Assembly (NCBI GenBank): GCA_029850515.1
Contig: JARCRW010000091.1
Coordinates: forward strand, 1-49,031
From: Nitrosotalea sp.
Lineage (GTDB): Archaea > Thermoproteota > Nitrososphaeria > Nitrososphaerales > Nitrosopumilaceae
DNA: 49,031 bases
Direction: 5' to 3'
Below the pieces are notes generated by a model. That model was not told the origin of the DNA and ran no database searches. It was given only the letters and a program-made list of their open reading frames with translations. The position numbers were made by a program, and so were the translations under genes. Below, piece by piece: positions 1,954 through 49,031 of this stretch; position 1 is the first letter of the stretch; every line of letters begins with the position of its first letter.

Positions 1954-2829
1954 TTGATAACAACTAAAACTATTGTTCGGATTTCTACGTTGTCACTTCT
2001 TGTGATTGGTGTAGTCTCTGCATTCTTGTTAATTTATGTAAGACCAACAAGTCAAGGACCGATTCCAGAACTTGTAGATAAGAATACACTTATCATAATG
2101 ATAAAAAAATTCAACCCTGATCTGTCCATCTATGACCTCAACAACATGGAACTGTTACACATACACAAAACAGGCCAAGTCTACGTAGTTGACCAAAACA
2201 CACTCAGAGATACCGATTTGTACCAAGAGAATCTACCTAATTATCCGCATGACCAATACGTGTGGAAAGTACCGTTCACAGAAGAGGCAAGTGTTGGAGG
2301 ACAACTCAGCAGTACAATTTATGATGCGTCTAGCGGGACAAGGCTTGGCAATATTTTTCCTAGTGCTGATTGTCCACTCGGAGGTCACGAGCAATCAAAC
2401 AATGGCCATAAAATAGTTTACTTGGTCTACTATGTAATTTCGTCTAATGGAAAAACGTCTTATGTAGACCCCACACTCAAAGGCACTTTTCTTGGAAACG
2501 AAGCAGAGTTTGAATTAATCAACAAGACACAAAACTTTCCAGATGTATCGATGATGATGCATATGTATAGCCATGTATGCGTCGATTCATTTCCAACTGA
2601 TTGGTATTTCAAGAAAGATCCCAACTTTCCTGGCAGTAAAAATGATGTAGAATATCTAGCCATGGGCAGAGGAACCAACAACCAGATAATCATTGTCGAC
2701 AAGTTTGATTCTGAAGACAGAAACATAGGTAGAATACTTTATTGTGGAACTGATGCGTCTCCTATATATCATGCAAGCATGAGGAAAATTTTTTCTTGTT
2801 TTAATTCCACGTCTTCTATTACTTCGTAG
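1954..2829 (+). CDS. N-terminally anchored extracellular protein, PepSY-like part
   Basis: After a TTG start at 1954 (291 residues) comes one hydrophobic helix (LSLLVIGVVSAFLLIYV, about residues 11-27) and then an extracellular-type domain. The stretch QYVWKVPF, followed by IYDASSGTRLGNI, has the shape of PepSY-like domains: a strand, then D-A-x-(S/T)-G and a strand. Two Cys pairs occur in the C-terminal half. The frame stays open further upstream, but that part overlaps the antisense small gene and reads as unlikely protein, so the TTG start is chosen. No clean promoter was found. Function unknown. It is the first member of the secreted-protein array but lacks the MKTLHL leader. Confidence 0.65.
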   Translation: MITTKTIVRISTLSLLVIGVVSAFLLIYVRPTSQGPIPELVDKNTLIIMIKKFNPDLSIYDLNNMELLHIHKTGQVYVVDQNTLRDTDLYQENLPNYPHDQYVWKVPFTEEASVGGQLSSTIYDASSGTRLGNIFPSADCPLGGHEQSNNGHKIVYLVYYVISSNGKTSYVDPTLKGTFLGNEAEFELINKTQNFPDVSMMMHMYSHVCVDSFPTDWYFKKDPNFPGSKNDVEYLAMGRGTNNQIIIVDKFDSEDRNIGRILYCGTDASPIYHASMRKIFSCFNSTSSITS

Positions 2830-2836
2830 GTTGGTG

Positions 2837-2883
2837 TTTAGACCACCGTATTGCGGTTGACTAAAAAACATTTGTTCGGGAAT
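2837..2883 (+). repeat. Intergenic repeat A, copy 1
   Basis: Three diverged copies of this element lie upstream of array promoters: here, at 3964-4000 and at 42226-42271. The shared core is TTTAGACCAC, a few bases, ATTGC-GTTGACTAAA and ACATT. This copy and the third also share the extension TTTGTTCGGGAAT. It ends about 40 nt before the promoter cassette of the next gene. Confidence 0.75.
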
Positions 2884-2919
2884 ACGTGCTTGGTTTTAGA
2901 AGAATCTTACTGAGAGAAT

Positions 2920-2966
2920 CTACGCCAGTTTTTTATGGTTTGAATGATAAATGATAGCATATTTTG
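2920..2966 (+). promoter_or_regulatory. Array promoter cassette, copy 1
   Basis: CTACGCCA at 2920 is followed by the T-rich TATA-like TTTTTTAT at 2929-2936, 35 nt before the TTG start at 2964. The downstream GTCCAGTAC segment is not conserved here, so this is one of the more diverged copies. Confidence 0.75.
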
Positions 2967-3947
2967 AAAACTCTATTTTCATTATGTCTTGTTGTACTGA
3001 TAGTCACACCATTGTTACCTTTAGCATCAGCACATGGAGTATGTACTGGAATACCACCACGTTTTGGAAGATTAGATGATGTTCATTTTTCAAGCCAATC
3101 AGTTCAAACTGGAGATACAATCATAATAACTGGAAATATTACAACAATGGTACAACAAGATTTACAGGGATATCTTTCAATTCATTCAAGTCCATCTCCA
3201 CATGCAAGATGGATTGTGATGTCAACAGAACCAAGTGAGAAAATGATTAATGTTACACAATTCTCAAGAGTTCCATTTTCCATGACAATCAAAGCATTGC
3301 AACCGGGAACCTACAAACTCTCTCCTGTACTTTACTTACCGGAAATAGGACCTGCATTTGGTATGCTAAATGGATGTAACACAGAACCTGTGGTCACAGT
3401 TACAGGCGAATCAATATGCAATACAGGATTTGCATCCCTATTGAAAGCAGAAGACGATTCTTCATTCTGTGTAAAACCTACTACTGCTCAAAAGTTGATT
3501 GAGAGAGGTTGGGCAAAGATAACTGTTACAAAGGCAACTTTTGATGTTATACAATCAAACACGACACAAACAAATGCGATGGCAAACTTGGGTAATGATA
3601 CAGGAATAACTACTATAGGTAATCAGGCATATTATTTTGAGACACCGAATTATTCTCATGACGTTTACTTTAACTCACCACAAATTTCATTTCATGATGT
3701 AATCTTTACCTTGTTTCCAAGTGGATTCAGAGGAGGACTGCCAACTAATGGCTGTGGAGGACAATACTATTGGACTGATGTTAAGTTCTCAGATGGCACT
3801 AGTGAGTTATTGCATATCTTTGTAGGTTCCCCACAATGTTCTGATTCTCAACCTCCAACCTATTTTAGTACTCATACAAATCCTCAGGCAGGTTTGATAT
3901 TCTATGATGGAAAAATGAAATTATTGATAAGCGTAGAAGAGAAGTAA
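2964..3947 (+). CDS. Secreted protein with QPR module and FSDG C-terminal domain
   Basis: A secreted protein of 327 residues that begins with TTG in the position where sister genes have ATG. A signal peptide (residues 1-23) ends in LASA. An Ig-like domain follows (about 24-145) and starts AHGVCTGIPPRFGRLD. Then comes a degenerate QPR module (about 150-188): it has lost QFKSG but keeps ICNTGF, FCVKPTTAQKLIERGW. The C-terminal domain (about 215-327) contains DVKFSDG and PQAG. The architecture matches the broken gene at 7028, and the last domain matches the one at 48054. It has its own promoter cassette and is monocistronic. Role unknown; extracellular location is inferred. Confidence 0.85.
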   Translation: MKTLFSLCLVVLIVTPLLPLASAHGVCTGIPPRFGRLDDVHFSSQSVQTGDTIIITGNITTMVQQDLQGYLSIHSSPSPHARWIVMSTEPSEKMINVTQFSRVPFSMTIKALQPGTYKLSPVLYLPEIGPAFGMLNGCNTEPVVTVTGESICNTGFASLLKAEDDSSFCVKPTTAQKLIERGWAKITVTKATFDVIQSNTTQTNAMANLGNDTGITTIGNQAYYFETPNYSHDVYFNSPQISFHDVIFTLFPSGFRGGLPTNGCGGQYYWTDVKFSDGTSELLHIFVGSPQCSDSQPPTYFSTHTNPQAGLIFYDGKMKLLISVEEK

Positions 3948-3963
3948 AACCCAACAATCTTCT

Positions 3964-4075: not shown

Positions 4076-4125
4076 CTACGCCACTTTTTTAAGAAGCCAT
4101 GCCTGTCCAGTACGTGTAAAACATG
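4076..4125 (+). promoter_or_regulatory. Array promoter cassette, copy 2
   Basis: CTACGCCAC, then TTTTTTAA (4085-4092), then CCATGCCTGTCCAGTACGTG and the ATG at 4123. The full downstream block is conserved. It drives the unit 4123-9675. Confidence 0.85.
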
Positions 4126-4635
4126 AAACCCCCACACCTTGCAATTGTTTTTGCTGTTTTGATTACCGGAATCGTATTAGTTGTTATCATGACCATCACA
4201 CAAGAGCATCCACCCGGGGTATTATCTGTGAAATCACCCGTATTGCCGCAAAATTATGCAATCGATTACTATGTCAACATGACAAGACAAATTGTACTCA
4301 AGCCATTCCAAATTCAGACCATTCCTGTACAAATTTACGCTCCACAAGACAAGCCATTACACGTTAAATTGGGCGTGGCACTGCCAAATAAAGAATCTAA
4401 TTTTATTGCTACTGGAAATGGCAACATTCCATTTGGAATATTGGCTACATTGAGCAAAAATGAGATTAATCTCCCAGCAACTTCGGAGAATGGTACTGCT
4501 GTTAGAGATACTGTTCAATTGACTGTTTTTGCATACTCGTTTACAAGTGGCACATACAAGATAGGCGTATTGTTATACCAAGATGATAACGGAGGAGAGT
4601 GGATTTCAAGATTTGTCACGATAAAGGTGGATTAA
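4123..4635 (+). CDS. Membrane-anchored Ig-like surface protein
   Basis: 170 residues. The N-terminal helix (LAIVFAVLITGIVLVVIMTI, about 6-25) has no good cleavage site, so it probably serves as a signal-anchor. The rest is beta-rich: an Ig-like sandwich with a final GTYKIGVLLYQDD strand pair. There is no QPR module and no C-terminal helix. First gene of a five-gene unit behind promoter copy 2; the next gene starts 4 nt after its stop. Function not recognised. Confidence 0.8.
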   Translation: MKPPHLAIVFAVLITGIVLVVIMTITQEHPPGVLSVKSPVLPQNYAIDYYVNMTRQIVLKPFQIQTIPVQIYAPQDKPLHVKLGVALPNKESNFIATGNGNIPFGILATLSKNEINLPATSENGTAVRDTVQLTVFAYSFTSGTYKIGVLLYQDDNGGEWISRFVTIKVD

Positions 4636-4639
4636 AAAA

Positions 4640-6037
4640 ATGAAAAGATCACATCTTTCAATTCTGACTATACCCGTCTTGGTGGTGCTTGTTATGGGTA
4701 TTTTCTATTATACTAATCCATCAAATGCGATATATGGAGGACCTGAGTGCAACGAAAAAAGTCTCCTAGGGTTTCCTCTGGCCTCGCCATATTTTGCCAA
4801 AAAGATTGCACTTGTCTCAAATGTTGGAAGTGCAGACCCGTCCAATTTTACGCTGTATACAGTAAACAGCGACGGTAGTGGCAGTCTGGATAAAATCAGT
4901 ACAATTCCATACCAGACTGCTATTGCAATGTCGTCTGACGGAAACAAGATTGCGTTTCTCAGACAAGTAAACAAGACAAACCAGATCTTTGTTGCAGATA
5001 CTGACGGTACTGGACTCAAACAGATGACTTTTGACAATGCAATAAAATCTGTCATCGGTATCACTCCAGACGGGAAAAAGATAATCTATAACCACTATGA
5101 CAGTGCGGGACGGATAAATAATTACGATACCATGGATTCTGGCGGTAAAAGTCACATACAAATTACAAATGATTCATCAAGGAAGGGTTGGCCTGCACTC
5201 TCTTTCGATGGTACAACTCTTGTATTCAATGACGAATCCAAGCCTCCACAAATATTTGCAGTAAGAACGGACGGAAGCGATTTCCATCATGTCACAAACG
5301 GGTCGCTGTTCTCGCACACCCCGGTGATATCAGGAAATGGTTCCAAGCTAGTCTTTTCAAGAGACAATCCTGCTGATTCCAATTCAAAATATCTATTCAC
5401 AATAAACACCGATGGAACAGACCTTGTTCAGCTTACTCCAAAACCAATCTACTTCCAGTCCGATTTTACCGTATCCTTGGATGGTTCAAAGGTAGCATTT
5501 GATGACGGTTCAAACCTTGCATATTATGTATCCGTGATAAATTCCGATGGAACCGGATACGAGAAAATGACCAATACTGACACGTACTATTCGCACACGC
5601 CTCTGCTTTCATCAGATGGTTCAAAGCTGATCTACTCATCTGTTAATCCAACACAGACACTTTTCATGTCAGACGTGAAGAATGGCGGATCACCACTTGA
5701 GGTAGATTCTGGTATGATATGGTATGAAAAAGAGATCTCACCAGACACCGCAGAAATCGTCTATCCAAAAATTGTTGACAATACTGAAGAAATTCTGGCT
5801 GCAACTTATGACGGAAAGACATTTCCACTGTTTGACAATTCTATTTTCACGCCAAATCCAAACTGTACTATTCCATACGATGGGCCTTCTTCGGGCATTT
5901 CGCATCCTCCTCATTTTATGCATATGACAATTGTAGAACCATGGTATGACAAGGTGCCAGGGTGGATATGGGTAGGTATCATTAGTGGTACAGTGATATC
6001 ATTTTGGATATTTTATTTCAGGCGTTTCAAGGAATGA
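4640..6037 (+). CDS. Secreted TolB/PD40-type beta-propeller with C-terminal anchor
   Basis: 465 residues. A signal peptide (about 1-30) precedes a propeller built from repeated blades with the pattern S-x-D-G-x-K-I-x-F, for example MSSDGNKIAFLR, TPDGKKIIYN, SFDGTTLVFND, SGNGSKLVFS, SLDGSKVAFDD and SSDGSKLIYSS. Between blades are D-T-D-G-T-G-L or N-S-D-G-T-G turns, as in TolB/PD40 proteins. A C-terminal helix (WIWVGIISGTVISFWIFYF, about 441-459) with a basic tail (RRFKE) anchors it outside the cell. It has no QPR module, in line with the anchor. Such propellers usually bind proteins or glycans. No enzyme signature is seen. Confidence 0.88.
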   Translation: MKRSHLSILTIPVLVVLVMGIFYYTNPSNAIYGGPECNEKSLLGFPLASPYFAKKIALVSNVGSADPSNFTLYTVNSDGSGSLDKISTIPYQTAIAMSSDGNKIAFLRQVNKTNQIFVADTDGTGLKQMTFDNAIKSVIGITPDGKKIIYNHYDSAGRINNYDTMDSGGKSHIQITNDSSRKGWPALSFDGTTLVFNDESKPPQIFAVRTDGSDFHHVTNGSLFSHTPVISGNGSKLVFSRDNPADSNSKYLFTINTDGTDLVQLTPKPIYFQSDFTVSLDGSKVAFDDGSNLAYYVSVINSDGTGYEKMTNTDTYYSHTPLLSSDGSKLIYSSVNPTQTLFMSDVKNGGSPLEVDSGMIWYEKEISPDTAEIVYPKIVDNTEEILAATYDGKTFPLFDNSIFTPNPNCTIPYDGPSSGISHPPHFMHMTIVEPWYDKVPGWIWVGIISGTVISFWIFYFRRFKE

Positions 6038-6047
6038 TGAGACCAAG

Positions 6048-7031
6048 ATGAAGTTCAATACAACAATTAATTATGCTGTGATTTACCTTGCAGCAATTTC
6101 TATTGCAACATTTGTTTACCCAATTTTTTTCACGGATCTAAACTTTGTCGGACATAGGTATGATTTAGGAGAGTTCTCCCAAGTTGCATACCTGACTGGC
6201 GGCGCATTCTTCCATGTTGCAGATGTCGTTCTGCCCATGTTGCTGCCACCAAATGTCATGCTTAGATCTACGATTGTATCTTTTACAAGCATGTCAGTTG
6301 GCGTAATTGGCATCGCATCAATACTTGGGCTGGTAAGAAAACAGCGTTGGGCGCAAAGAACTGCAGTAGTGTTAATGTCGATGCAGTTTATTTTTAACAT
6401 GCTGGTATTTGTCTTTGCAAAAAACCCTTCGTACCTGCTATTTTCCATACCTCCCGGTGTGTTGATTTATTATTTGTCAAAACAATCTGTCAGTAGACAG
6501 TTCAAGGGCATGACTGGATTTACCCTGGAAAAAACTGGTCTTCTTCTGGTATGCATTTTAGGATTTAACGTGCTGGTTCTGATGGCTGTGTTTGTTTTCT
6601 ATAATTATGTTGTAGATGTGCAAGTATTGTATGGGGACATGTCTCCACACACGATGGAAAAGGTAATCGACATGGACAGTATACACAAGTCTAGGCTGGT
6701 CCAAAACATTTTGGTATCTGTGACAAATCCTGACGCAACTCACTGCCAGATTACAGATGAGGGGTATCACAAATGTGAGTCAACCCAACTCCTCAAAGTA
6801 TATCAGATAGACCAGGTCACGCGCGATTTACAAATGCAAAATGCGTTTAATTCAAACAGGTGGGGATTCTACACCGGTACCCAATACCATGTAATTTTTC
6901 AGCAAAATGGAATCTATTACCTTATTTTTGTCATGACTCCTGATTTTTGGAACTGGGTAATTTTTGATTTGCTGGTCTCTATGATGGGGACATTGATGAT
7001 AGTTGCATGGAAGAGGATGGTTTTGAAATGA
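6048..7031 (+). CDS. Polytopic membrane protein of unknown function
   Basis: 327 residues with six or seven predicted helices: about 8-28, 45-65, 70-92, 100-121, 125-140, 163-190 and one at the C-terminus (about 305-322). Between the last two lies an extracellular loop of about 110 residues. It contains two Cys (THCQITDEGYHKCES), which may form a disulfide. It has no MKTLHL leader and no family I recognise. It overlaps the next gene by 4 nt (ATGA), so the two are probably translationally coupled. Confidence 0.8.
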   Translation: MKFNTTINYAVIYLAAISIATFVYPIFFTDLNFVGHRYDLGEFSQVAYLTGGAFFHVADVVLPMLLPPNVMLRSTIVSFTSMSVGVIGIASILGLVRKQRWAQRTAVVLMSMQFIFNMLVFVFAKNPSYLLFSIPPGVLIYYLSKQSVSRQFKGMTGFTLEKTGLLLVCILGFNVLVLMAVFVFYNYVVDVQVLYGDMSPHTMEKVIDMDSIHKSRLVQNILVSVTNPDATHCQITDEGYHKCESTQLLKVYQIDQVTRDLQMQNAFNSNRWGFYTGTQYHVIFQQNGIYYLIFVMTPDFWNWVIFDLLVSMMGTLMIVAWKRMVLK

Positions 7032-8096
7032 AAACTCTATACTATTCCATAATTGTAATCGTGGCACTGTCCATGATTTCCACAATTGTGCCACATGCAT
7101 CAGCACATGGCATATGCACAGGATTGCAAAGTCGTTATGGCAGACTTGATGGTGTAGCATTGTCTAATCAGACTTTACAAACCGGTAGCACTCTTATCGT
7201 ATCGGGTAAGATAGTAAGTTCTGCAACAAATAACATGACAGGCTTGTTCAGGATATGGTCTAATTCAACCACTATTGGTGTCTGGGAAGTGGTTTCAAAA
7301 GAACCATATGGATATAAAATTAATATTTCTCCAAATGATGTAACTCCGTTTTCAATTACCATCAAAGCTCTCAAACCGGGTTCTTACCGCATTTCCCCCC
7401 AAATTTATTTCGGGGATCTGGGTGCTATTTCTTTGTCAGATGGATGCCATAGGGAACCCAAAGTCGTTGTTACAGGTAATTCAATCCCGTTGCCAAATTT
7501 ATCTCCTCTGAAGCAGTTTGAATCAGGAATTGCAGCAAACGATGTAAAATGTATGTCAGGTTTTCAGCTGATTCTCAAATCAGAAGATGGCACTCCTGCT
7601 TGTGTAAAATCTGGTACCATAAATGTACTCATTGAACGCGGTTGGGCAAAACCAGAACTTTACTATGTTGATTCTCATGTGAGCCCAAAAGTTGTATTGT
7701 ATGATCATTTTTATGACGGAATAGACAAAGATAACACAACTGTATCAATCAACAATCAGACCTATTATCAAACTACGCTTAACTATACAGTTGATAATCT
7801 AAGAAAGAATACGTCAATACAATTTCACGGTGTTATATTTGCTTTTCCAGAAGGGATCATGGTTACTCCTGGGCAGTATGACAATACTTGATGTGAAATT
7901 TTCAGATGGCTCTGAAGAAATCTATGGTAGAAAAATGATGAATTCCGATGGATCCGGTTCTGGTTTTGGAATAGGAATTCCATCGAAGTTTGGTCCTCCT
8001 GCAACAACTTCAATCATCGTTCTTAGTAATCATGTGATGCCACAAGCCGGAATTACCATATTCCATGATAAAATCAAGCTATTGGTGAGCAAGTAA
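7028..8096 (+). pseudogene. Frameshifted QPR protein, paralogue of the genes at 2964 and 48054
   Basis: From ATG 7028 the frame encodes a signal peptide ending in HASA, an Ig-like domain starting AHGICTGLQSRYGRLD, a good QPR module (about residues 158-208: PLKQFESG, C, PACVK, IERGWAK) and the first part of the FSDG C-terminal domain. It stops at 7891 after PGQYDNT. The missing end is intact in the +1 frame (ILDVKFSDGSEEIYG through DKIKLLVSK, ending 8096). A single-base insertion or two-base deletion near 7870-7890 explains this. No obvious slippery site is present, so decay or sequencing error is likelier than programmed shifting. The 3' end shares 41 identical bases with 48758-48798. Confidence 0.8.
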
Positions 8097-8097
8097 A

Positions 8098-9675
8098 ATG
8101 AAAACAGCGCATCTTACAATAATTGCAACTTTCTGCAGCTTTATTGGCATCTCTTTTTCTGGGGCATCCGCCGAGGAATTATCCATGGGCGGTCCAGTCC
8201 AAACAATTCATTATCAGTTTTCACAAATGGCCGCATCTGGGAATGACGTTTACGTCACATATCAGGAAAATATTGGCAATGGAGTTGGCGCATCCGTGTT
8301 CTTTAGAAAAAGTTGGGATTCTGGATCTAATTTTAACGGCATAATTAAATTAAGCAGTGGTACCAACGCCGCAAATCCGTTGGTTGCAGCCTCTGGAAAT
8401 GATGTATATGTCACATGGATGGAAAATTGGGGAGGGCGTGGAATTTCATACGCAATGTTTGAGCGGAGCTCTGATGGCGGCAATACATTCTCTGCACCAA
8501 TCAGGATAAGCAATGGTGACGGTGATGCCAACCCTCGACAGATCATCGCAAATGGAAGCAACGTATACATCCTAATTGATTACGCGTTGCATGGAAATAC
8601 AATGGCCAGATTTTCATTTCTAGCAAGTCATGACAACGGTGCTACTTTTGGAAATTCAATCACTCTGCTGGAAGATACCAGAGGTCTTGCCTATATTTCT
8701 ACATCTGAAGACGGCAACACAGTCTATGCCTTTGGAGAAGGTAGTGGAAAATGCCCGATAGGGACAATGAAATGCAATTATGATATCTTTCTAAAGAAAA
8801 GTACAGACAGCGGTCTGTCTTTTGGAGAACCAGACATAATCAGAACAACAAACGCGCAGATATTTTTTCCCCAGATTGCCTCACCTGATACAAGTGTGTA
8901 TCTTGTTTGGGAAGAGCGGATAAGCGGCAATTCCAAATTATTTTTTGTAAAGAGCAATAATTTGGGAACAACTTTTAGCAAACCTATTGTCATAAATCAA
9001 CAAACAGGCGAGTCCTCCTTTCCACACATGGCTGCAAATGGGAAAAACGTGTTTCTAGTGTGGGATTACAGCAACGAATCTGTGATATCAAGCGAGAGGC
9101 GCCATCACGACATTATGATTGATTCCCCAGTGTCAGGGTTTTTCTTTACAAAAAGCTCTGATGGCGGCAATAGTTTTTCCGATCCAATAAACTTGAGCAA
9201 TGCTGTTGGAACTAGTTATTTGTCAAACATTGCCGCATCGGGGAATGACGTATTTGTCTCATGGGGATCTAAATTTGGAGACAAGGAAAATGTCTTTATT
9301 CGAAAAAGCATGGACGGTGGTACTAGCTTTGATGATACCATCAAGCTAACAGACGAAAAACAAGATTATTTTCAAAAGCAAATGGTATCATCAGGTAGAA
9401 ATGTTTACGTTGCAATAGATACTGCTTTTCCTGGCGATGATCTGTTTTTAACTACAAGCCATGATTTTGGAAATACATTTGGGAATCTGGTTAATCTGAA
9501 CCATGAGGGCCTCTTGCATCTTGGACCGCCATCAAAAGTTCCGGCAGTTCAAGTCTACCCGGAAAACAGTCATGCCGATGACCTGTACAATGCCATCCTT
9601 TTGGCAGCTGTTGGCGTGCCCATAGCTATTGGCGTTTCTATTGGCATGTTGTTATTTACTAGAAAAAGAAAATGA
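8098..9675 (+). CDS. Secreted eight-Asp-box propeller with C-terminal anchor
   Basis: 525 residues. The signal peptide ends in GASA (about residue 22). Eight Asp-box (BNR) motifs of the form S-x-D-x-G-x-T-F follow at roughly 50-residue spacing, near residues 71, 123, 175, 233, 285, 352, 403 and 453 (e.g. RSSDGGNTFS, KSSDGGNSFS, KSMDGGTSFD, TSHDFGNTFG). This predicts a sialidase-like beta-propeller. The sialidase catalytic Arg triad is not evident, so binding rather than hydrolysis is likely. A C-terminal helix (AILLAAVGVPIAIGVSIGML) with a basic tail (RKRK) anchors it. It is a sister of the gene at 11886, which has a QPR module in place of the anchor. Confidence 0.88.
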   Translation: MKTAHLTIIATFCSFIGISFSGASAEELSMGGPVQTIHYQFSQMAASGNDVYVTYQENIGNGVGASVFFRKSWDSGSNFNGIIKLSSGTNAANPLVAASGNDVYVTWMENWGGRGISYAMFERSSDGGNTFSAPIRISNGDGDANPRQIIANGSNVYILIDYALHGNTMARFSFLASHDNGATFGNSITLLEDTRGLAYISTSEDGNTVYAFGEGSGKCPIGTMKCNYDIFLKKSTDSGLSFGEPDIIRTTNAQIFFPQIASPDTSVYLVWEERISGNSKLFFVKSNNLGTTFSKPIVINQQTGESSFPHMAANGKNVFLVWDYSNESVISSERRHHDIMIDSPVSGFFFTKSSDGGNSFSDPINLSNAVGTSYLSNIAASGNDVFVSWGSKFGDKENVFIRKSMDGGTSFDDTIKLTDEKQDYFQKQMVSSGRNVYVAIDTAFPGDDLFLTTSHDFGNTFGNLVNLNHEGLLHLGPPSKVPAVQVYPENSHADDLYNAILLAAVGVPIAIGVSIGMLLFTRKRK

Positions 9676-9839: not shown

Positions 9840-9886
9840 CTACACCACTTTTTTAAACCATGTCTATCCAGTATGTGTACAAAATG
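9840..9886 (+). promoter_or_regulatory. Array promoter cassette, copy 3
   Basis: CTACACCAC, TTTTTTAA at 9849-9856, CCATGTCTATCCAGTATGTG, then ACAAA before the ATG at 9884, 35 nt after the TATA-like element. The in-frame ATG at 9860 lies inside the cassette and is not used as the start here. Confidence 0.88.
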
Positions 9887-11134
9887 AAAATTATATATCT
9901 TGGAATCATTCTGGCATTTCTACTAGTTGCAATGTCGGAAGCAAAACCTATTCATGCGGAATCCAGCGGTCCAGTCCAAATTCTCAATGTGCAAGTACAA
10001 CCAAACATAAAAGTCAACGATACATTCTCACTCAATATGACAATTCTCAACAATTCTGCATTTCCGATATATCTTACAAGTGGTTCCTGTACTCCTGCAT
10101 TCTCTGTCGTGTTTGATGCTCATGCAAAACAAGTTTACCCAAACATAACATGCACTACAGAGGCGATATTGCAAAAAGTAGATCCGCAAAGTCAGGTAAC
10201 AATATCAAACGCAAACAAACCCGGGATAATTTATCAAGCAGTGCAACCCGGAACGGCAACTGTAAACATTACGCTTCCATATTATGCAAAAAACCAGACT
10301 GCTACAGATTATTCCAATATTTACTATAATGCTTCAAAATCATTTTCATTTACTATATTGAATCAATCCGAAACACCCCCGCAACATGCCTACGGAGGAG
10401 GCGGTCCAGTTGTCACAATAACTTTGGACCCGTTAGAACAGTTCAAGTCAGGAATTTCTGCAAAAGATGTTACTTGCAAAGAAGGTCTTCAACTTGTAAT
10501 CAAAGCAGAAGATGGCTCCCCGGCATGTGTAAAATATGATACTGCGCAGAAATTGATTGAAAGAGAATGGACAACAAATTCTCAAATCGCCTATCCTTGC
10601 CCAACGACTGATCCAAGCAAGATATCCGTTGATTTCCCTGTAAAACTCCCAGCCATACTGCCTAATGGTTACTCACTGCAAGGTATTGAGCAAAATGGCA
10701 GGATTCAAGTATATGCATATTATGCGAACAAGTCGCTCTGTGCACCAGACCATAACTTTCAATTTCATGATATACAGCTTCTTGTTACAATCGGAAAACA
10801 ACAGCGGCCGCTACCTAACTTGGAATATTATCAACTAATTCCCCAACTGGTTGGTAGCGAATGGGACATACCGCTAGGTCCCAATCTCATCTCCGAACTC
10901 GCAAACGAGGGGATAACTGTTCAACCTTTAGAGATAAATGGCTACAAGGGATTTGGGTGGGTACCTTGGGATACTCCTGTATATACTGAACAATTAGATG
11001 TGATAGATCCCAATCGAACAGCAAGTTCGTTATTTTTCTATAACAACAATGATCAAGATGTGTATTCATTAATTGACTTTGATCATCAGTCGGTAGTTCG
11101 GCTCTCGAACATTGCAAGGAGCATTCCACCTTAA
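9884..11134 (+). CDS. Secreted protein: Ig-like domain, QPR module, C-terminal domain
   Basis: 416 residues. The signal peptide (MKIIYLG and onward) ends near IHA (about 25). The Ig-like domain (about 30-155) has the pattern VNDTFSLNMTILNNSAFPIY and two Cys; it is shared with the genes at 29028 and 33953. A Gly-rich linker (AYGGGGPVVTITLDPLEQF) leads into a QPR module (about 182-229; RGW is REW here). The C-terminal domain contains LPNGYSLQGIEQNG and ends with a helix, reminiscent of DUF4367-type folds (tentative). First gene of the long unit 9884-19298. Confidence 0.88.
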   Translation: MKIIYLGIILAFLLVAMSEAKPIHAESSGPVQILNVQVQPNIKVNDTFSLNMTILNNSAFPIYLTSGSCTPAFSVVFDAHAKQVYPNITCTTEAILQKVDPQSQVTISNANKPGIIYQAVQPGTATVNITLPYYAKNQTATDYSNIYYNASKSFSFTILNQSETPPQHAYGGGGPVVTITLDPLEQFKSGISAKDVTCKEGLQLVIKAEDGSPACVKYDTAQKLIEREWTTNSQIAYPCPTTDPSKISVDFPVKLPAILPNGYSLQGIEQNGRIQVYAYYANKSLCAPDHNFQFHDIQLLVTIGKQQRPLPNLEYYQLIPQLVGSEWDIPLGPNLISELANEGITVQPLEINGYKGFGWVPWDTPVYTEQLDVIDPNRTASSLFFYNNNDQDVYSLIDFDHQSVVRLSNIARSIPP

Positions 11135-33545: not shown

Positions 33546-33956
33546 AAAATTCTGTCAATATTGATAATTTCAGTAATAGCCATTGTTTCAGCATTCATAA
33601 TTTATACTAGTCATGATTATTATGCAAAACCTGTTCTTATCTCAAAACAACAAGCTATCGATATAGCAGTAAAAGGAATTCAATGTAAGAAAGATCCCTA
33701 CCGTTTGAATAGCACTACCATTATTGGACAATTATTTCACATAAAAGATAACACAGTATTTTTAGTGGATGACAAAAATATGCAAGACAAGGTTTTGGCT
33801 AATAATTATCTCTCAGGAGTAGTAAAATCAACAGATTATGTCTGGGAGATTGGTTGGGATTGCTATGATGCTACTCTTGGTCAATATGTGACTCCTTATG
33901 ATCATGAATGGGAACTCAGATTTGTGGATGCCAAGAGTGGAATCCTATTGAAATGA
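33543..33956 (+). CDS. N-terminally anchored PepSY-domain protein
   Basis: 137 residues. A single N-terminal helix (LSILIISVIAIVSAFIIYTS) precedes an extracellular PepSY-type domain (about 35-137). SKQQAIDIAVKG is the first helix, DYVWEIGWDCYD the central strand, and WELRFVDAKSGILL the final D-A-x-x-G strand. PepSY domains are often protease-inhibitor or regulatory modules. The same domain ends the gene at 40639. Stop and the next ATG overlap, so it is translationally coupled to the large QPR protein that follows. Confidence 0.84.
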   Translation: MKILSILIISVIAIVSAFIIYTSHDYYAKPVLISKQQAIDIAVKGIQCKKDPYRLNSTTIIGQLFHIKDNTVFLVDDKNMQDKVLANNYLSGVVKSTDYVWEIGWDCYDATLGQYVTPYDHEWELRFVDAKSGILLK

Positions 33957-36978: not shown

Positions 36979-37299
36979 CTTTAATTCAAGAACTTTAAGC
37001 GAAAAAATTCTTTCGTACCCTTGATGCCAAGAACAACTTTTCCTACCTGTACCACGAATCTAAATCGAAGTATGGTAGGGCGATTAGCACAAATTTTCCT
37101 AAGATGTATCTTCTAGTAAAATTTGTCGTGGTGTAAGACAAAATTTCCACTCTGAATTTTTTTATAAATTTTAACCTTGACACTGATTCATCAGAATTTT
37201 GAGGATCAATGTGGATTGTAAGAATATCATAACATGTAAACAGATAGAAAATATACATAACATTTAATTTCATTTTTTTCAATTATGTTTCAAGTAGAA
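36979..37299 (+). other. Intergenic region without a supported gene
   Basis: About 320 bases. AT-rich, with an imperfect inverted repeat (AATTTGTC at about 37120 against GACAAAATT at about 37137). I see no cassette promoter and no coding region that I can defend. An antisense frame here has no convincing protein features. A T-rich stretch lies just before the next start. Confidence 0.5.
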
Positions 37300-38328
37300 A
37301 TGAAATTTCTATATCTTTCACTAATTGTTCTAAGTGTGATGTTTATCGGTAATGTTAATGCTTACGCATTATATCCATTACCGGTTCCAGTGTTATCTAT
37401 GAAATCCAACACTATTGGGCACATATACGTTAAATTTAGTACCTATTATCATAATCAAACCCTAAAACTTGGACCTATGGACATCTATGATGCAAATCTG
37501 ACAAATCAAAATCCGCTTAAACTGGATGATCTATCAGTAATTCCAAATCAAACTTCTATTACACTTGATTCCAATAGTATAATAATTGATTACACTGTCA
37601 CAGCAAAGAATAATCTGAAAGGCATCTATGCATTACCTATAGAACATTTGTCAGATCTTTCTCCTTATGTTGTAGGAGAAAATCCTTTGAAAACCTATCA
37701 AGAAAGATATTCAAAATCTTATTGCCACATGTTTCCACTAGTAATAGGATTAAACAGCTCGCAGATCAAAGAAGAGACATTGGACAAATTCGTCCTTTTA
37801 AATACGTCAGATAATTGTCCTGTATCTCTTACAGATCAGTTATTTGTAGGAAGTAAAGCCATAGACCGACTACCTGGAACTATTCCACGTACAATAATAC
37901 CAATAACGGCTGGTTTTGACAAGGAGACTTATTTTCCAGGTGATTCAGTAATGATAAATGGACAAATTTATACCAATGATACAAAAGTTACAGTTGAATT
38001 AGAAAAAGATCACAAACTGATCGTAAAATCAATGGATATCCCCATAACACAAAATGGAACTTTTATTTCTAATTTTACAATACCTAAAGATTCGGCTAAG
38101 GCTTGGAGTGTTGTTATGGTTTCTTCAAACGGTGGAACGCTTACTTTAGATCCTAACTTTGAACCGTTTCCACTAAAGCAATTTCAATCTGGAATTATGG
38201 CAAAGGATGTCATGTGTAAACAAGGATTACAATTAATTTTCAAAGCAACAGATGATTCACCAGCGTGTGTAAAACAAGAAACATCAAAAATACTTGTTGA
38301 ACGTGGTTGGGCAAAGGCACAACGCTGA
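37300..38328 (+). CDS. Secreted protein ending in a QPR module
   Basis: 342 residues from ATG 37300 (MKFLYLSLIVLS); an in-frame ATG at 37285 is the alternative. Signal ends near NAYA. The first domain (about 27-190) matches the start of the gene at 26412 (MKSNTIGHIYVKFSTYY, GIYALP, FPLVIGLNSSQI, NCPVSL). An MG2/Ig-like domain follows (about 205-285: DKETYFPGDSVMINGQIY). The QPR module (about 289-341: PLKQFQSG, C, PACVK, ERGW) stands at the very C-terminus. This shows that the module can be terminal and needs nothing after it. No cassette promoter lies upstream. Confidence 0.86.
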   Translation: MKFLYLSLIVLSVMFIGNVNAYALYPLPVPVLSMKSNTIGHIYVKFSTYYHNQTLKLGPMDIYDANLTNQNPLKLDDLSVIPNQTSITLDSNSIIIDYTVTAKNNLKGIYALPIEHLSDLSPYVVGENPLKTYQERYSKSYCHMFPLVIGLNSSQIKEETLDKFVLLNTSDNCPVSLTDQLFVGSKAIDRLPGTIPRTIIPITAGFDKETYFPGDSVMINGQIYTNDTKVTVELEKDHKLIVKSMDIPITQNGTFISNFTIPKDSAKAWSVVMVSSNGGTLTLDPNFEPFPLKQFQSGIMAKDVMCKQGLQLIFKATDDSPACVKQETSKILVERGWAKAQR

Positions 38329-39391: not shown

Positions 39392-40630
39392 AATTTTTTA
39401 TATCTTTTCATGATTACATTTCTGTTAATCTTAGTGATTTGTGGTACTGGAGTTGCATCTGCACAAAATACAACAAATTCCACAATGTCGCATAACACAA
39501 TCAAAACTTCTGACGGCGGATGGGTTACGCCAATCCAAACAACTGATCAAAATGGAAAAAATCTCACAATACATTATGAAACAGGCATTGCTGCATCAGG
39601 CTATGCAAATACTGGCCCTCCACCAGATCCATTATTTCTTACTGATAACAAAGGAAGAATAGATAACTTTCTTACAAATCATCAAATTCTGATTCGAGCT
39701 GATGCCTGGCCAGGGCATGATACAAAAACAATGGATATTGGAATAAACATGACAAGTGATACCGGATTTGCATTTTATGCCAAAAAACACCTAATCTTTG
39801 AACCTGACACTAACCACATGCAGCAGGTCATTTGGCAATTCATTCCAACAAAGGCAGGAAATTACACCATTGAGAAATTTTCAAATGGGATGCATACATC
39901 ATCAGCTTTCTTCTCAGTTTTTGATTCTAAATCGAGTTCAAATTCTACTGTCCCGGTATCTCCCCTGAGGCAATTCAAGTGGGGCATTTTGAAAGAAACC
40001 ATTCAATGTCAAACTGACTCTGTATTGGTGTTCAAAACAAAAGATGGCTCTCCCGCGTGTATGAAACCGGATACTGTAACCAAACTTGTTACAAGGGAGT
40101 GGGCAAAAGTTTACGTGTCAAATCAATTTGATGCGTCTTTAATTAGCAACTTTCAACCAATTTATGATGATACCACAAATAGTACAAAACAATGTGAGAT
40201 ACCGCTTGGGGGAAAAGAAGGGTATATTCCAGTCATGTACATGCCTGTGAACTCTGTTGGGAAGATATGTGTTGAATATTCTTCTAATTATGCAGCCAAA
40301 GTGAACTTGATGTTCTATGATGCAACACCTTCACAAAATTCTTCAAAGAGTATAACCGTGATAGCTCAGCCACCAGTAATTCCGGAAGGAAAAAGTGATG
40401 TTGTGTTTACCATAAAGACTGGCAACCAAACTGGATTTTTTGGGGCAGAGTTGTTCTGCGTAGGAATGCCTTTTGCTGTGGGATATGACAATCAATCAAG
40501 TATCACTGCAAACAATTTTCCGTGGATGAAGTATCGTACAATTCATTGTCCTGCAGCAATTTACACTACCAAAGTTCTTGGCGTCCATGGCATTGGAACC
40601 AGGTATGTTTTCAACTCTCTAGTTGATTGA
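39389..40630 (+). CDS. Secreted protein: N-terminal beta domain, QPR module, C-terminal module
   Basis: 413 residues. Leader MNFLYLFMITFLL; signal ends ASAQ (about 27). The N-terminal region (about 35-180) has TSDTGFAFYAKKHLIFEPD and AGNYTIEKFSNGMHTSSAFF. The QPR module is about 192-241 (PLRQFKWG, C, PACMK, TREW). The C-terminal module (about 255-410: YMPVNSVGKICVEYSS, GFFGAELFCVGMPFAVGYDN, CPAAIY) is nearly the same as one inside the gene at 33953. No anchor. First of a three-gene unit. Confidence 0.86.
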   Translation: MNFLYLFMITFLLILVICGTGVASAQNTTNSTMSHNTIKTSDGGWVTPIQTTDQNGKNLTIHYETGIAASGYANTGPPPDPLFLTDNKGRIDNFLTNHQILIRADAWPGHDTKTMDIGINMTSDTGFAFYAKKHLIFEPDTNHMQQVIWQFIPTKAGNYTIEKFSNGMHTSSAFFSVFDSKSSSNSTVPVSPLRQFKWGILKETIQCQTDSVLVFKTKDGSPACMKPDTVTKLVTREWAKVYVSNQFDASLISNFQPIYDDTTNSTKQCEIPLGGKEGYIPVMYMPVNSVGKICVEYSSNYAAKVNLMFYDATPSQNSSKSITVIAQPPVIPEGKSDVVFTIKTGNQTGFFGAELFCVGMPFAVGYDNQSSITANNFPWMKYRTIHCPAAIYTTKVLGVHGIGTRYVFNSLVD

Positions 40631-40638
40631 TGATAAAA

Positions 40639-41706
40639 ATGAAAACTCTATTTTTGATAATTGTTTTATTGATAGTTCTTTTTATTGCGGAAAATCCCCC
40701 ACGTGTAGAAGCAACATGTGCTAATTCATATGTAAATATACCAAACCATAGTACTCCTTCTTCAAACCCAATAATCTTGGATTCATCGGATAGACCAATC
40801 ACGGGAATTGTGAAATTAGGACAGCAGATACAAATCCTTGAAGACTTCACAAACGGGCCGGACTGTGATCAGACATTTTACTACCTTGTACAGATACAAG
40901 ATATTAACGGTGTGACGGTATCACTGTCTTGGATTGACGGTACATTGTACCCAGGTCAAACACTGAGTCCAGTACAGTCTTGGACTCCGTTGGTAGCTGG
41001 TACATACGAAGTTCAAACTTTTGTATGGAAAAGCATTGGAAATCCAGATAAATGGTGGCCAACTGAGAGTGCAACAATAACCGCAGTATCTACTGGAGAA
41101 GCAAATGCATTGGAAACCCCATTATTACCATTACAACAATTCAAGCTTGGCGTAGAATCTTACGCTGTCCAATGTACGCCTGATCTAAAATTACTTGTAA
41201 GATCAGAAAATGATTTTCCTGCTTGTGTAAAATCATCTAGCATTACCAGGCTTCTTGCGCAAGGATGGAAATTACCAGAAAATACATCATTTCAAAATAT
41301 TCAAACACAATTTCAGTCCAAGATTATTACAAAAGAGAATGCCATCAAAATTGCTCAAGAATATGCAAGGGAACAACATAAGGCAGGCGTTATGAATTAT
41401 TCAAACTCTGAGATAAAGGCAAACTTGGTATACTATATCACAACATCATTTCCAAGGGTACCTGTTGATCATAGTACAGGGATACCAACCCGGATAATGG
41501 ACTGGCTTGATGAGTATTACCAGAATCCACAGTGGTGGACAGAATTTGAAAAGGACTATTTGGGCTTGCCAAACCATAGAATTGAAGCAGGCCACGTGGT
41601 GTGGGAGCTAGATTATGGAAGGTGTGATCATTGCATTGCAAACAGTCCAATGATATTTGTTGATGCAATTACAGGTAAAGTCATAGATACCAAGTGGCTG
41701 TATTAA
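40639..41706 (+). CDS. Secreted protein: Ig-like domain, QPR module, C-terminal PepSY domain
   Basis: 355 residues. Leader MKTLFLIIVLLIV; cleavage near VEA. The first domain (about 28-155: VKLGQQIQILEDFTNGPDCD, VSLSWIDGTLYPGQTLSP) is the intact counterpart of the broken gene at 47236. QPR module at about 163-212 (PLQQFKLG, C, PACVK, AQGW). The PepSY-type domain (about 225-355) has TKENAIKIAQEYAREQ, HVVWELDYGRCDHC and IFVDAITGKVIDTKW. It combines a module and a PepSY domain that are otherwise encoded separately (33543). No anchor. The next ATG is directly adjacent. Confidence 0.88.
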   Translation: MKTLFLIIVLLIVLFIAENPPRVEATCANSYVNIPNHSTPSSNPIILDSSDRPITGIVKLGQQIQILEDFTNGPDCDQTFYYLVQIQDINGVTVSLSWIDGTLYPGQTLSPVQSWTPLVAGTYEVQTFVWKSIGNPDKWWPTESATITAVSTGEANALETPLLPLQQFKLGVESYAVQCTPDLKLLVRSENDFPACVKSSSITRLLAQGWKLPENTSFQNIQTQFQSKIITKENAIKIAQEYAREQHKAGVMNYSNSEIKANLVYYITTSFPRVPVDHSTGIPTRIMDWLDEYYQNPQWWTEFEKDYLGLPNHRIEAGHVVWELDYGRCDHCIANSPMIFVDAITGKVIDTKWLY

Positions 41707-42886: not shown

Positions 42887-42910
42887 TTTTTCAAAAAATA
42901 AATCGGTTGA

Positions 42911-43269: not shown

Positions 43270-43285
43270 CCAAAAATATTATTAA

Positions 43286-44551: not shown

Positions 44552-44574
44552 TTGATATGAAATCTGGAAGAAAC

Positions 44575-44621
44575 CTACACCAGTTTTTTAAACCATACAT
44601 GTCCAGTACGTATACAAAATG
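44575..44621 (+). promoter_or_regulatory. Array promoter cassette, copy 10
   Basis: CTACACCAG, TTTTTTAA at 44584-44591, CCATACATGTCCAGTACGTA, TACAAA and ATG at 44619. One of the best-conserved copies. Confidence 0.9.
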
Positions 44622-45086: not shown

Positions 45087-45134
45087 TATGCACCACTTTT
45101 TTAAACGACGCATGTCAAGTACCTGTAAATCTTG
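45087..45134 (+). promoter_or_regulatory. Array promoter cassette, copy 11
   Basis: TATGCACCAC, TTTTTTAA at 45097-45104, CGACGCATGTCAAGTACCTG, TAAATC and the TTG start at 45132, 35 nt after the TATA-like element. Confidence 0.82.
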
Positions 45135-46409
45135 AAAACTCTATATTTTACAATTATTGCTTCAGTGTTTTTCATGTTGTTCCTTACAAATCATGTCTAT
45201 GCTACATGCGATATGGTAAATGGGAAACAAACATGTTTTGGCATGGAACCCATACTAATCTCAATCCATTCAGACAAGTCACATTATGAAAATTCAGACA
45301 AGCCTGTTATCACAATAACTGGAATGCCAAACAAACTGGAATATCTTGAAATCCATAATCAATCAGGAAATGTCGTATTTTCACAGAGTATCGAACTTCC
45401 GCCAACTGGAGTTGTCAATTATGTCCTAGATATATCGTCATACAAACTAGGTGTCTATTCTGCTATTGCAAGTACTTCAACAAGTAATGTGACTACTCAC
45501 TTTATGGTAGGTCCGCCGTCTGGTCCTCCTATGACGCTTAATGTAGTCAAAAACACGTACGCACCAGGAGATACTATCAAGGTACTTGGTACGGAAGGTC
45601 CTAATGGAATCATCCAACTGTCACTACTTGATCCAAACAGTAATGTTGTAAAATCAGTCCAAACATATACTGACAATGCAGGGCAGTTTTCATCAAATGA
45701 TCTCAAGATCCCAACAAATGCAATTTCTGGAATCTGGCAAATAAATGCAACACATGGTATATCATACACCAGTCTAGAAATCAAAGTAAATTCCTCATCT
45801 ACCATTGCATCCGTAATACCTTCTCCTCTAAAACAATTCCAATCTGGAATAAAAACAGAGAATGTAAAGTGTAATCCTGATCTTATTCTTGCAATAAAAC
45901 TAGATTATTCCCCAGCGTGTGTAAAAGAATCAAGTGCAACAAGTCTTTTTCTTCGAGGATGGACATTTGGCTTTGCAAATTACCAGCCAGTATATTTCAT
46001 GAAATCAAACACGGTTGGCCAAATATCTGTAAAATATTATCCAAACAAGTATCAAGGAGGAGTTGCTCCTGACATGTCTGCATCTCTTCATTCGTGGATA
46101 TATGACATGAAATCTGATTCCGGTCTTACTTTGAGTGATATCCATGCAACAGCCAAGCCAGATTATATCCACACAAATTCTATTACTATTGTGAATTATA
46201 CCATTGCAGCAGGCAGTACTCAAGGCGTATACTGGTTGTCGCTATTAGATCCATGTACTCTAATACCTATTGCAGTAGACCTTGATGAGTCACATATCAC
46301 AACATCTGATCTTCAAAACCCTGCAGAATCAAAGAGTTGTCCTGCACCTGTAACTCAATTCCATGTGATGGATATTTCCAATGTAATTCTGAAACTAATT
46401 CATGAGTGA
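45132..46409 (+). CDS. Secreted protein: tandem MG2/Ig-like domains, QPR module, C-terminal module
   Basis: 425 residues, TTG start in the leader (L-KTLYFTIIASVF). Signal ends near VYA. Two Ig/MG2-like domains (about 38-125 and 130-220: SDKSHYENSDKPVITITG, KNTYAPGDTIKVLGTEG) match the pair in the gene at 27600. QPR module at about 232-281 (PLKQFQSG, C, PACVK, LRGW). The C-terminal module (about 288-425: YFMKSNTVGQISVKYY, GVYWLSLLDPC, CPAPV) belongs to the family also in 26412, 33953, 37300 and 39389. Relative to 27600, only the part after QPR differs. No anchor. Confidence 0.87.
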   Translation: MKTLYFTIIASVFFMLFLTNHVYATCDMVNGKQTCFGMEPILISIHSDKSHYENSDKPVITITGMPNKLEYLEIHNQSGNVVFSQSIELPPTGVVNYVLDISSYKLGVYSAIASTSTSNVTTHFMVGPPSGPPMTLNVVKNTYAPGDTIKVLGTEGPNGIIQLSLLDPNSNVVKSVQTYTDNAGQFSSNDLKIPTNAISGIWQINATHGISYTSLEIKVNSSSTIASVIPSPLKQFQSGIKTENVKCNPDLILAIKLDYSPACVKESSATSLFLRGWTFGFANYQPVYFMKSNTVGQISVKYYPNKYQGGVAPDMSASLHSWIYDMKSDSGLTLSDIHATAKPDYIHTNSITIVNYTIAAGSTQGVYWLSLLDPCTLIPIAVDLDESHITTSDLQNPAESKSCPAPVTQFHVMDISNVILKLIHE

Positions 46410-47239: not shown

Positions 47240-47987
47240 AAATCCCAATCTTTTTCATTTTTATCATTCCAATTTTGCTACTTTGTCTTTTCATTTCACC
47301 TCATTACGCGTATTCTGTACAGGAATCACTGACAATCTCAACTGACAAAACTTTATACCATTATGGGGATAGCTACACAATTTCAGGCCAGGTTAATCCG
47401 GTTGTACCACACCGACTATTATCTATTGAAATTCTACATCCAAGTTATCCACCTCTCGAATTGGTATCCATTGAGCCAAATGCTGATGTAAGTTATTGCA
47501 GACATTGCCACTCATGTTCAAAGCCATCCCGTCTGGAAATTTTTCCATAATCGCAAGTTATGCGGGAACCAAGAACCAAACAACATTTAGCTATGTTGGC
47601 CTTGGATGTACTCCGCAAATCTTTTCTTCAGCTCCAATTATTCGCGGTATGCCTGCAAATAACCCAAGAATAGTGGATCCATCTGGGAATGCAATTGTAG
47701 GTGCGGTCAAAGTAGGACAGCAGATACAAATCACTGCTAATTTGGCCAACGGGCAGGATTGCGTTCAGCCATTTGCATACCTTGTGCAAATACACGATGC
47801 TAACGGCGTTACAATATCACTCTAGTGGATAATAGGTACGCTTGACATTAACCAGTCACTTACTCCGAAGCAGTCATGGATTCCAACTGCCCCTGGCACA
47901 TATACTGCTCAAATTTTTACTTGGAGTAGCCTTGACAATCCAAACGCATTGGCCCCACCAATGAGTGCTACAATATATGTGCAATAA
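47236..47987 (+). pseudogene. Decayed array gene: frameshift and in-frame stop
   Basis: ATG 47236 overlaps the upstream stop (ATGA). Signal and an MG2/Ig-like domain (TDKTLYHYGDSYTISGQVN) read to about 47490; the frame then degrades and stops at 47550. The -1 frame continues from about 47496 (LPLMFKAIPSGNFSIIASYA). It reaches VKVGQQIQITANLANGQDC, matching the gene at 40639. At 47823 a TAG stands where that paralogue has Ser (VSLSWIDG). Beyond it the frame stays open (WIIGTLDINQSLTPKQSW) to a stop at 47987. Two independent lesions make sequencing error unlikely. Confidence 0.85.
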
Positions 47988-48008
47988 TGATGTAGAACTA
48001 GAAGAATT

Positions 48009-48056
48009 CTACACCAGTTTTTTAAACCATACATATCCAGTACAAATACAATCATG
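48009..48056 (+). promoter_or_regulatory. Array promoter cassette, copy 12
   Basis: CTAGAAGAATTCTACACCAG, TTTTTTAA at 48018-48025, CCATACATATCCAGTACAAA and ATG at 48054. The promoter is well conserved although the gene behind it carries a premature stop. Confidence 0.88.
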
Positions 48057-48791
48057 AAGATTTTGCACATGTCAATAATCACAATATCTCTTGTAGCCGT
48101 TTTCTTTGGTATGTAATATGTATATGCACAAAATGTAATGGGAGGAGGCCCTGCTGTCACAATTACCTTAGATCCTCTTGAGCAGTTCAAATCGGGAATT
48201 GCTGCACAAGATGTATCATGCACGAAAGGTCTACATCTGCTGATTAGAGCGGAGAGTGGAACTCCAGCATGCATAACACCTGAGACTGCAACAAAACTGT
48301 TTGAGATTGGTTGGACAAAACAAATACGTTATTATGTTGACAAGCAAACATTACCTAACGTTCCTGCTGTAGAACCTAAAGCTACACTGTATGATTATTC
48401 TTATGGAGGAATTGACAAAGATGGTGGAATGGTATCAATCAACAATCAGACTTACTACCAAACTATGCTCAATTATACAATTGATAATTTGAAAAAGGGA
48501 ACATCCACGCAATTTCATAATGTCACTTTTTCTTTTCCTGAAGGTGTTCTTCCAACGCCAGGGGGCAACTTTCTATCGTCTGACATGAAATTTTCAGATG
48601 GCTCTGAAGAAATCTATGGCGGAGAAATACAATTCGCAGATAGATCTGGAGTCGTAGGCGGTATGCCAATTCCTGTACAATTCGGGCCATCACACTCGAG
48701 AAACTCGACTACCGTTCTTGGCAATCACATGGAACCGCAAGCTGGAATTATCATATACCATGATAAAATCAAGCTATTGGTGAGCAAGTAA
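48054..48791 (+). pseudogene. QPR protein with premature stop in the signal peptide
   Basis: ATG 48054 begins MKILHMSIITISLVAVFFGM and meets TAA at 48114. The same frame continues without further stops: YVYAQNVMGGGPAVTITLDP, a full QPR module (PLEQFKSG, C, PACIT, EIGW) and the FSDG C-terminal domain, ending at 48791. One base change explains the break. Restart at ATG 48138 would give a leaderless, non-exported 217-residue protein. The N-terminal Ig-like domain of its paralogues (2964, 7028) is missing; the QPR module follows the signal directly. Confidence 0.8.
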
Positions 48792-48792
48792 A

Positions 48793-49031
48793 ATGAAACC
48801 TCTGCATCTTGCAATAATAATTGGCTCAATAATGATACCTCTACTTGTGTTTGGAATTTATATTATTTCAAATCCAATAATCACAGAACCAAGTAGGTAT
48901 GACAATAACTACATGGAATCTTTGCAGGGACCTCCAACCGTCAATAGGATGAAAATAGTGGGATTGCAGCAAAATTATACCGTTGGTCAGCAAATTAATG
49001 CCTCGGTAGTTTACACTGGATACCTTAACGG
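48793..49031 (+). CDS. N-terminal part of an anchored array protein (cut by window edge)
   Basis: 79 codons are visible and the frame stays open at the edge. MKPLHLAIIIGSIMIPLLVF continues to GIYIISNP, a signal-anchor type also found at 17004 and 41707. After it comes the start of an Ig-like domain (QQNYTVGQQINASVVYTG). The first bases, together with the preceding 35, are identical to 8063-8103, so a duplicated segment ends here. Confidence 0.75.
   Translation, partial: MKPLHLAIIIGSIMIPLLVFGIYIISNPIITEPSRYDNNYMESLQGPPTVNRMKIVGLQQNYTVGQQINASVVYTGYLN

Follow-up and report, generated by a model that had tools for sequence, protein, structure and literature searches.

The 49,031-nt stretch of DNA analysed here (the window; contig C91 of a 1.70-Mb Nitrosotalea genome in 97 contigs, from an ammonia oxidiser of soil in the family Nitrosopumilaceae) carries an array of about 40 mostly plus-strand genes over some 47 kb, of which 17 encode one copy each of the same 49-residue module, the domain WING-49. 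Our analysis indicates that these are probably lineage-specific, fast-evolving, exported modular envelope proteins, whose N- and C-terminal halves are reassorted by homologous recombination at the module, giving each species its own set of mosaic proteins. As judged from the alignments, array genes exchange whole N- or C-terminal parts between Nitrosotalea species, with the junctions in the module.

Junctions between gene halves fall within the module

We compared the window with about 30 relatives; those in the same genus include the closed genome of Nitrosotalea devanaterra (LN890280) and many soil metagenome-assembled genomes (MAGs). Among genes from different genomes with N-terminal halves at least 70% identical, the C-terminal halves did not match in 45 of 65 pairs; conversely, C-terminal halves at least 70% identical were joined to non-matching N-terminal halves in 36 of 55 pairs. 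This pairwise discordance test was used because single-linkage clustering of N- and C-terminal parts merged unrelated multi-domain proteins and was dropped.

The position of the switch was estimated by a maximum-likelihood change-point test on pairs sharing one half, with flank DNA identity of at least 85%; a switch was called inside the module if the log-likelihood ratio was > 3 against both module edges. In 30 of 31 discordant pairs from different genomes the switch lay significantly within the 150-nt module. Some of these pairs have a gene in common, so by our count they represent about 20 independent junctions. In a survey of 103 sequences with 228 modules, 67 of the 214 breakpoints in WING-49 open reading frames (ORFs) fell in the module, compared with 25 expected (binomial p = 2e-14, which is too strong because each event is counted from both partners and the effective number is about half). 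Breakpoints were also more frequent than expected at the leaders (60 vs. 20), an excess to which we give little weight because gene ends yield breaks anyway.

The junctions can be seen base by base in the closest relative, G312, whose matching stretches are about 96–98% identical to the window. Gene 7025 (array genes are named by their start coordinate) is about 99% identical to its G312 counterpart through nt 52 of the module and unrelated beyond, and gene 48138 shows the same pattern with a switch at about nt 47. For gene 9878 the match with G312 begins only in the second half of the module, while for gene 24330 it ends about 15–18 nt into the module. Finally, a single G312 gene consists of the N-terminal half of 45132 joined to the module and C-terminal half of 33947. 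Switch points inside the module, together with discordant halves, are most simply read as the module acting as a hinge for homologous recombination. The combinatorial repertoire proposed in an initial annotation of this DNA is strongly supported by chimeric genes whose junctions between species lie inside the module. Neither of the two outcomes that this annotation had named as refuting came about, since the module is a named domain for which no enzymatic role is known and the array varies between relatives, with synteny lacking.

The module is WING-49, a domain found mainly in Nitrosopumilaceae

All 17 modules of the initial annotation are present; 16 start within about 20 nt of where they had been placed, and the first is a partial copy from about 3396–3405. 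Searched with a profile of the 17, the genome yields 28 solid copies, including the 17 of this contig. The module spans 49 residues (about 150 nt), has two invariant cysteines (C17 and C34) and occurs once per module ORF in 228 of 228 cases across relatives. Every window module protein scanned matched the 49-residue NCBIfam family NF058652, "WING-49", with 44–86 bits (curated cut-off 22 bits). That entry is a named domain without stated function or known enzymatic role; the module matched neither Pfam nor PDB sequences, and the name was not found in the literature searched.

Of 400 genomes of the class, 179 contain WING-49, at 1 to >20 copies per genome, and almost all of these are Nitrosopumilaceae; among 300 genomes of the phylum it occurs in 41, every one from the same family. 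The A1 profile gave a few single or double matches in other families of the order, and 0 of 14 control genomes contained the module. As to a viral origin, a single-sequence scan found no relative among viral contigs, and four array proteins had no match in PHROGs.

The module may be N-terminal, internal or C-terminal, and forms the very C-terminus in 37 of 214 genes. Its AlphaFold model is a helix, a β-hairpin and a helix (pLDDT 94), in which the invariant cysteine pair could form a disulphide and the module could be an independent fold. In Nitrosopumilus-group genomes its partners include dienelactone hydrolase and proteins with Kazal and metallo-β-lactamase domains. WING-49 occurs once per protein, tolerates different positions and is attached to enzymes, inhibitors and binding domains that are unrelated to each other. 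We infer from this that it is a small domain stabilised by a disulphide and has a single shared function, most likely retention at the S-layer or pseudoperiplasm, or assembly there.

Two further sets of loci come from a Nitrosopumilus-like genus (g7). WING-49 proteins at loci L221 and L230 contain DUF4377 and a Kazal inhibitor, with a metallo-β-lactamase domain in one of the two. At L239, L241 and L254 two conserved genes adjoin, each with a leader, the module and a 350-residue C-terminal part of unknown type, and both are stable across species; this pair is possibly an ancestral, non-shuffled form of the WING-49 family.

Array genes share a leader, a promoter-like box and protein segments

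About 30 plus-strand genes begin with MK(T/I/P/S)(L/I)(H/Y)L and then a run of hydrophobic residues. At MKTL-type starts the Thr codon is ACT in 17 of 18 (background 0.29, p = 1e-8) and the Leu codon CTA in 14 of 18 (background 0.14, p = 2.5e-9). Because synonymous positions are conserved, the leader is common DNA, beyond a generic signal-peptide resemblance. The common leader described earlier therefore extends to the DNA level, the exceptions being five genes without it (6048, 36370, 38373, 44045 and 46450) and four minus-strand genes. Eight genes also have an upstream promoter-like box in common, CACCAGTTTTTTAAACC...GTCCAGTACGT (Table 1), and the 95-nt stretches upstream at 3998 and 9762 are 93% identical.

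The recurrence of whole domains in new combinations holds as homology, not as identity: 15582 and 30351, whose starts had been called equal, are 39% identical over 250 residues, and 27600 and 45132 are 39% identical over 173 residues. About 20 further pairs of module-masked array proteins share segments in differing combinations. For example, 9878, 29028, 33947 and 41707 have an N-terminal part in common, and the C-terminal part of 33947 is shared with 39338. Among the partner domains named in the initial annotation, propellers (BNR/PD40) and cupredoxins were confirmed by Pfam. PepSY and MG2/Ig matched weakly at the sequence level, with structure backing the Ig/macroglobulin assignment, while TIMP/NTR-like and lamin-tail-like partners were not confirmed. 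The full-length model of 45132 has an N-terminal helix, two Ig domains of the macroglobulin type, similar to those of complement C3/C5, a low-confidence linker and then the module; its C-terminal part is not resolved.

Because the leaders look by eye like signal peptides and C-terminal membrane tails occur, the array proteins are expected to act outside the membrane, at the surface. Gene 23036 matches PEFG-CTERM (TIGR04296) with 20.7 bits, below the cut-off of 25. No protein in the window reaches 1000 residues.

A few array genes appear damaged. Genes 7025 and 7830 look split by a frame change and together match the intact 48138 gene, and an array gene at 47236–47825 looks split into 47236 and 47496, the latter matching the front of 40636. 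The leader of 48138 (about 48055) is broken by a TAA where G312 has a sense codon; because this codon interrupts the leader (window 48055–48138), the copy looks like a pseudogene here.

The array follows a tRNA-Arg gene whose 3′ end recurs at island ends in relatives

The left flank of the array (window 1–1688; peroxiredoxin, aquaporin) is 78–97% identical in the relatives examined. Homology ends at the 3′ end of tRNA-Arg(GCG) in every relative whose contig extends there (that of G312 stops short), and past this point the gene content differs from genome to genome. Array genes turn up elsewhere in relatives, often as parts or chimeras; the array itself varies between these genomes and has no conserved synteny. 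No description of it was found in the Nitrosotalea genome papers searched.

The last 15 nt of the tRNA-Arg recur at the ends of islands. Right ends carry GGACATTATTGTTTnAGATCCCCCCGGGCCCG, found in 8 of 37 genomes of the genus (reversed control, 0), and left ends carry the inverted ACAATAATGTCC. In N. devanaterra two att repeats bound a 61.8-kb island with a conserved right end, which contains 11 of the 16 WING-49 genes of this genome together with an integrase-like ORF, a Hachiman pair (HamA, HamB) and a CARF/kinase pair. Att copies at L087 5143 and L088 4797 of this species are 19.6 kb apart, which suggests tandem elements at the same tRNA-Arg; the integrase-like gene after the second copy shares 87% identity with that of G138. 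An integrase-like ORF was recognised by eye beside att in G040 and G138; it had no above-cut-off match in Pfam, PHROGs or NCBIfam. In G312 and G128, WING-49 genes adjoin island right ends. The N. devanaterra segment L088 4797–14177 (about 514.8–524.2 kb) comprises an island left end with att, the integrase-like ORF, HamA/HamB and the CARF-type plus kinase/AAA pair.

We attempted to map the window array as an att-bounded element, and this failed: the right-end motif was not found in the window's own genome with up to 3 mismatches allowed. Window 1711–1806, just past the tRNA, resembles the flank outside the right end in G128. Given the missing right end and this outer-flank-like segment, the window array may lie outside an att-bounded element.

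A model of reassortment and its alternatives

We propose that array genes are built to one plan: promoter box, Sec-type leader, variable N-terminal part, WING-49 and variable C-terminal part. The module, and probably also the promoter–leader DNA, would supply homology, and crossovers in the module would keep frame and register, letting any N-terminal part join any C-terminal part. The genes concentrate at the tRNA-Arg(GCG) hotspot and, in N. devanaterra, travel in an att-bounded island. A changing surface could be advantageous against viruses, competitors or attachment surfaces, and reassortment would hence be retained. The variable parts presumably do the binding, and the proteins may serve in recognition, adhesion or conflict.

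Several points weigh against this proposal. Module copies within the window's own genome have a mean nucleotide identity of 56%, which makes them a poor substrate for strict homologous recombination; exchange therefore likely involves copies from other strains that resemble each other more closely, or guidance by short homology. Part of the pattern could also come from selection that keeps modules intact after exchange at random. Shuffling is not obligatory, since many WING-49 genes of Nitrosopumilus are stable orthologues, although exchange is also present there (3 of 6 N-similar pairs discordant). Most compared genomes are MAGs, and support for the combinatorial reading lies at the level of evolution between species. 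The envelope-retention role is conjectural, and no PDB fold matched the AlphaFold model of the module at E < 0.001. A stronger version of the proposal, in which WING-49 DNA is a dedicated hinge and populations continually swap N- and C-terminal halves within and between strains, with tRNA-Arg islands supplying parts, is possible but doubtful.

Slow, ordinary domain shuffling with duplication and loss, in which the module is a tolerated linker and the junctions are domain borders, would fit the commonness of such shuffling among exported proteins of archaea, the 30–40% similarity of paralogues, which points to old duplication, and the breakpoints that lie elsewhere in genes. We consider it unlikely, as 30 of 31 junctions lie within the folded module and away from its edges, in a common register, and junctions occur between genomes that are 96–98% identical beside the junction. 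The junctions might instead arise from assembly, with MAG contigs being chimeric at repeated modules, and MAGs do make up most of the comparison. However, the longest exact run shared by module copies within the window's genome is 23 nt (median longest run 9 nt), which is not long enough for the usual misjoining of short reads, and junctions recur in many independent assemblies, including the closed isolate N. devanaterra and the Nitrosotalea sp. TS culture, which makes an artefact of this kind scarcely credible.

Two further explanations were considered. In programmed variation of the antigenic type, a growing population copies sequence from silent cassettes into one expressed gene or a few, and a single array with numerous related variable parts and conserved ends, with crossovers at conserved DNA, is what such a system would show. 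Yet most array genes have a start codon, a leader and a stop, at least 8 carry the same type of promoter-like box, a single expression site is lacking, no gene for a recombinase was recognised in the window, and the evidence is between species and not from one clone; we regard this explanation as very improbable. A conflict system, of the polymorphic-toxin kind or like the VARTIG loci discussed below, would use conserved N-terminal and module parts to deliver variable C-terminal effectors. The C-terminal halves are indeed variable behind a shared module, N. devanaterra islands contain defence genes, and C-terminal parts are exchanged between species as in VARTIG (PMC8416519). This explanation is nonetheless improbable, since the N-terminal halves are as variable as the C-terminal halves, the module is itself the very C-terminus in 37 of 214 genes, and no toxin or nuclease domain or paired immunity gene was recognised among the genes scanned with Pfam and NCBIfam, where many C-terminal parts match nothing.

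Relation to known systems

In pilS/pilE, vls and shufflons, conserved stretches guide the recombination of variable parts. The analogy with silent cassettes drawn in the initial annotation is not supported: most genes here have their own leader and several the same promoter-like box, and no expression site, promoterless donors or site-specific recombinase were found in the window. Polymorphic toxins resemble the array in combining a conserved exported part with exchangeable domains, but here both halves vary and no toxin or immunity genes were recognised among the genes scanned.

The same annotation was aware of no described system of this kind, which needs amending on two counts. The module is NCBIfam WING-49, whose entry provides the name and not the role as recombination hinge, the array form or the island setting. 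The closest described system is VARTIG, hypervariable Ig-domain loci of Thermococcales, which is archaeal and has a similar logic (PMC8416519). VARTIG proteins are secreted and rich in Ig folds, their loci differ per genome and are shuffled, and protein parts are swapped between species; the authors also discuss macroglobulin-type domains, found no counterpart in other archaea and could not locate the recombination sites (PMC8416519). Exchange of protein parts between species and shuffling of loci are seen in Nitrosotalea too. In contrast, VARTIG has one large upstream Ig protein (arCOG07710, the first gene) with a varying C-terminal domain, whereas Nitrosotalea has another family, dozens of small genes, variation in both halves and junctions mapped within 150 nt. 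Mobile elements integrated at tRNA genes of Thaumarchaeota insert at the tRNA 3′ end and have att repeats and cargo islands (PMC6563490); the cargo here differs in being a WING-49 array with Hachiman genes, and the integrase-like protein in having no library match.

If the stronger version of the proposal is correct, this would be an archaeal combinatorial diversification system whose protein module is also the DNA joint. The array offers a testable system, with a named domain without function, many natural recombinants and junctions located within 150 nt, and, in a cultured species, connects a repertoire of surface proteins with a defence island anchored at a tRNA.

Features of the window

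Table 1. Coordinates of the tRNA gene, promoter-like box and array genes in the window. Crossovers are estimated positions.
Feature	Position	Strand	Remarks
tRNA-Arg (GCG)	1613..1690	+	att-like core formed by its final 15 nt (1674-1688)
First leader-less exported-type array gene	1954..2829	+	91% identical gene within the WING-49 array of another species (G133)
WING-49 gene	2964..3947	+	partial module 3396-3518; N-half and C-half belong to separate genes in G312
Run of genes with leader but no module (4123, 4640, 8098), with WING-49 gene 7025 among them	4123..9675	+	tightly packed example
WING-49 gene	7025..7891	+	module 7502-7651; crossover ~7538-7553; split C-end, resumed in the frame of 7830-8096
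WING-49 gene	9878..11134	+	module 10427-10576; crossover ~10497-10537
BNR-propeller-like N-part and WING-49	11886..14051	+	module 13296-13439
Leader, WING-49, then two cupredoxin domains	14055..15578	+	module 14175-14321
WING-49 gene, N-part common to 30351, C-terminal cupredoxin-like domain	15582..17003	+	module 16398-16544
WING-49 gene, N-part segment common to 30351	21473..22945	+	module 22295-22438
Leader-bearing exported protein, PEFG-CTERM-like tail	23036..23914	+	sub-cut-off match
WING-49 gene	24330..26402	+	module 25047-25196; crossover ~25061-25065
WING-49 gene	26412..27425	+	module 26952-27101; crossover ~27061
WING-49 gene, MG2/Ig-like N-part common to 45132	27600..29018	+	module 28269-28415
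WING-49 gene	29028..30347	+	module 29856-30002; crossover ~29882
WING-49 gene	33947..36034	+	module 34520-34666; module and C-half joined to 45132 N-half in G312 C192
WING-49 gene, module at extreme C-terminus	37297..38328	+	module 38167-38316
WING-49 gene, C-part common to 33947	39392..40630	+	module 39959-40108
WING-49 gene, PepSY-like C-part (below Pfam cut-off)	40636..41706	+	module 41125-41271
Shared promoter-like box, reference copy	44564..44617	+	one of 8 copies: 9829, 23005, 24271, 27545, 33487, 44564, 45077, 47998
Two macroglobulin/Ig-like domains, WING-49 and C-part	45132..46409	+	module 45822-45965; crossover ~45850
WING-49 gene	48138..48791	+	module 48171-48320; crossover ~48217-48220; leader ~48055 cut by TAA

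Genes of other types are interspersed in the array. A HicA toxin-like gene lies at 19688–19933 (Pfam, 45.8 bits), and a PMT-type glycosyltransferase, which could glycosylate envelope proteins, is encoded mid-array on the minus strand (31943–33412). A further block of three minus-strand genes at 42608–43978 includes winged-helix regulators (42911 and 43286) and is kept in G312 (94%).

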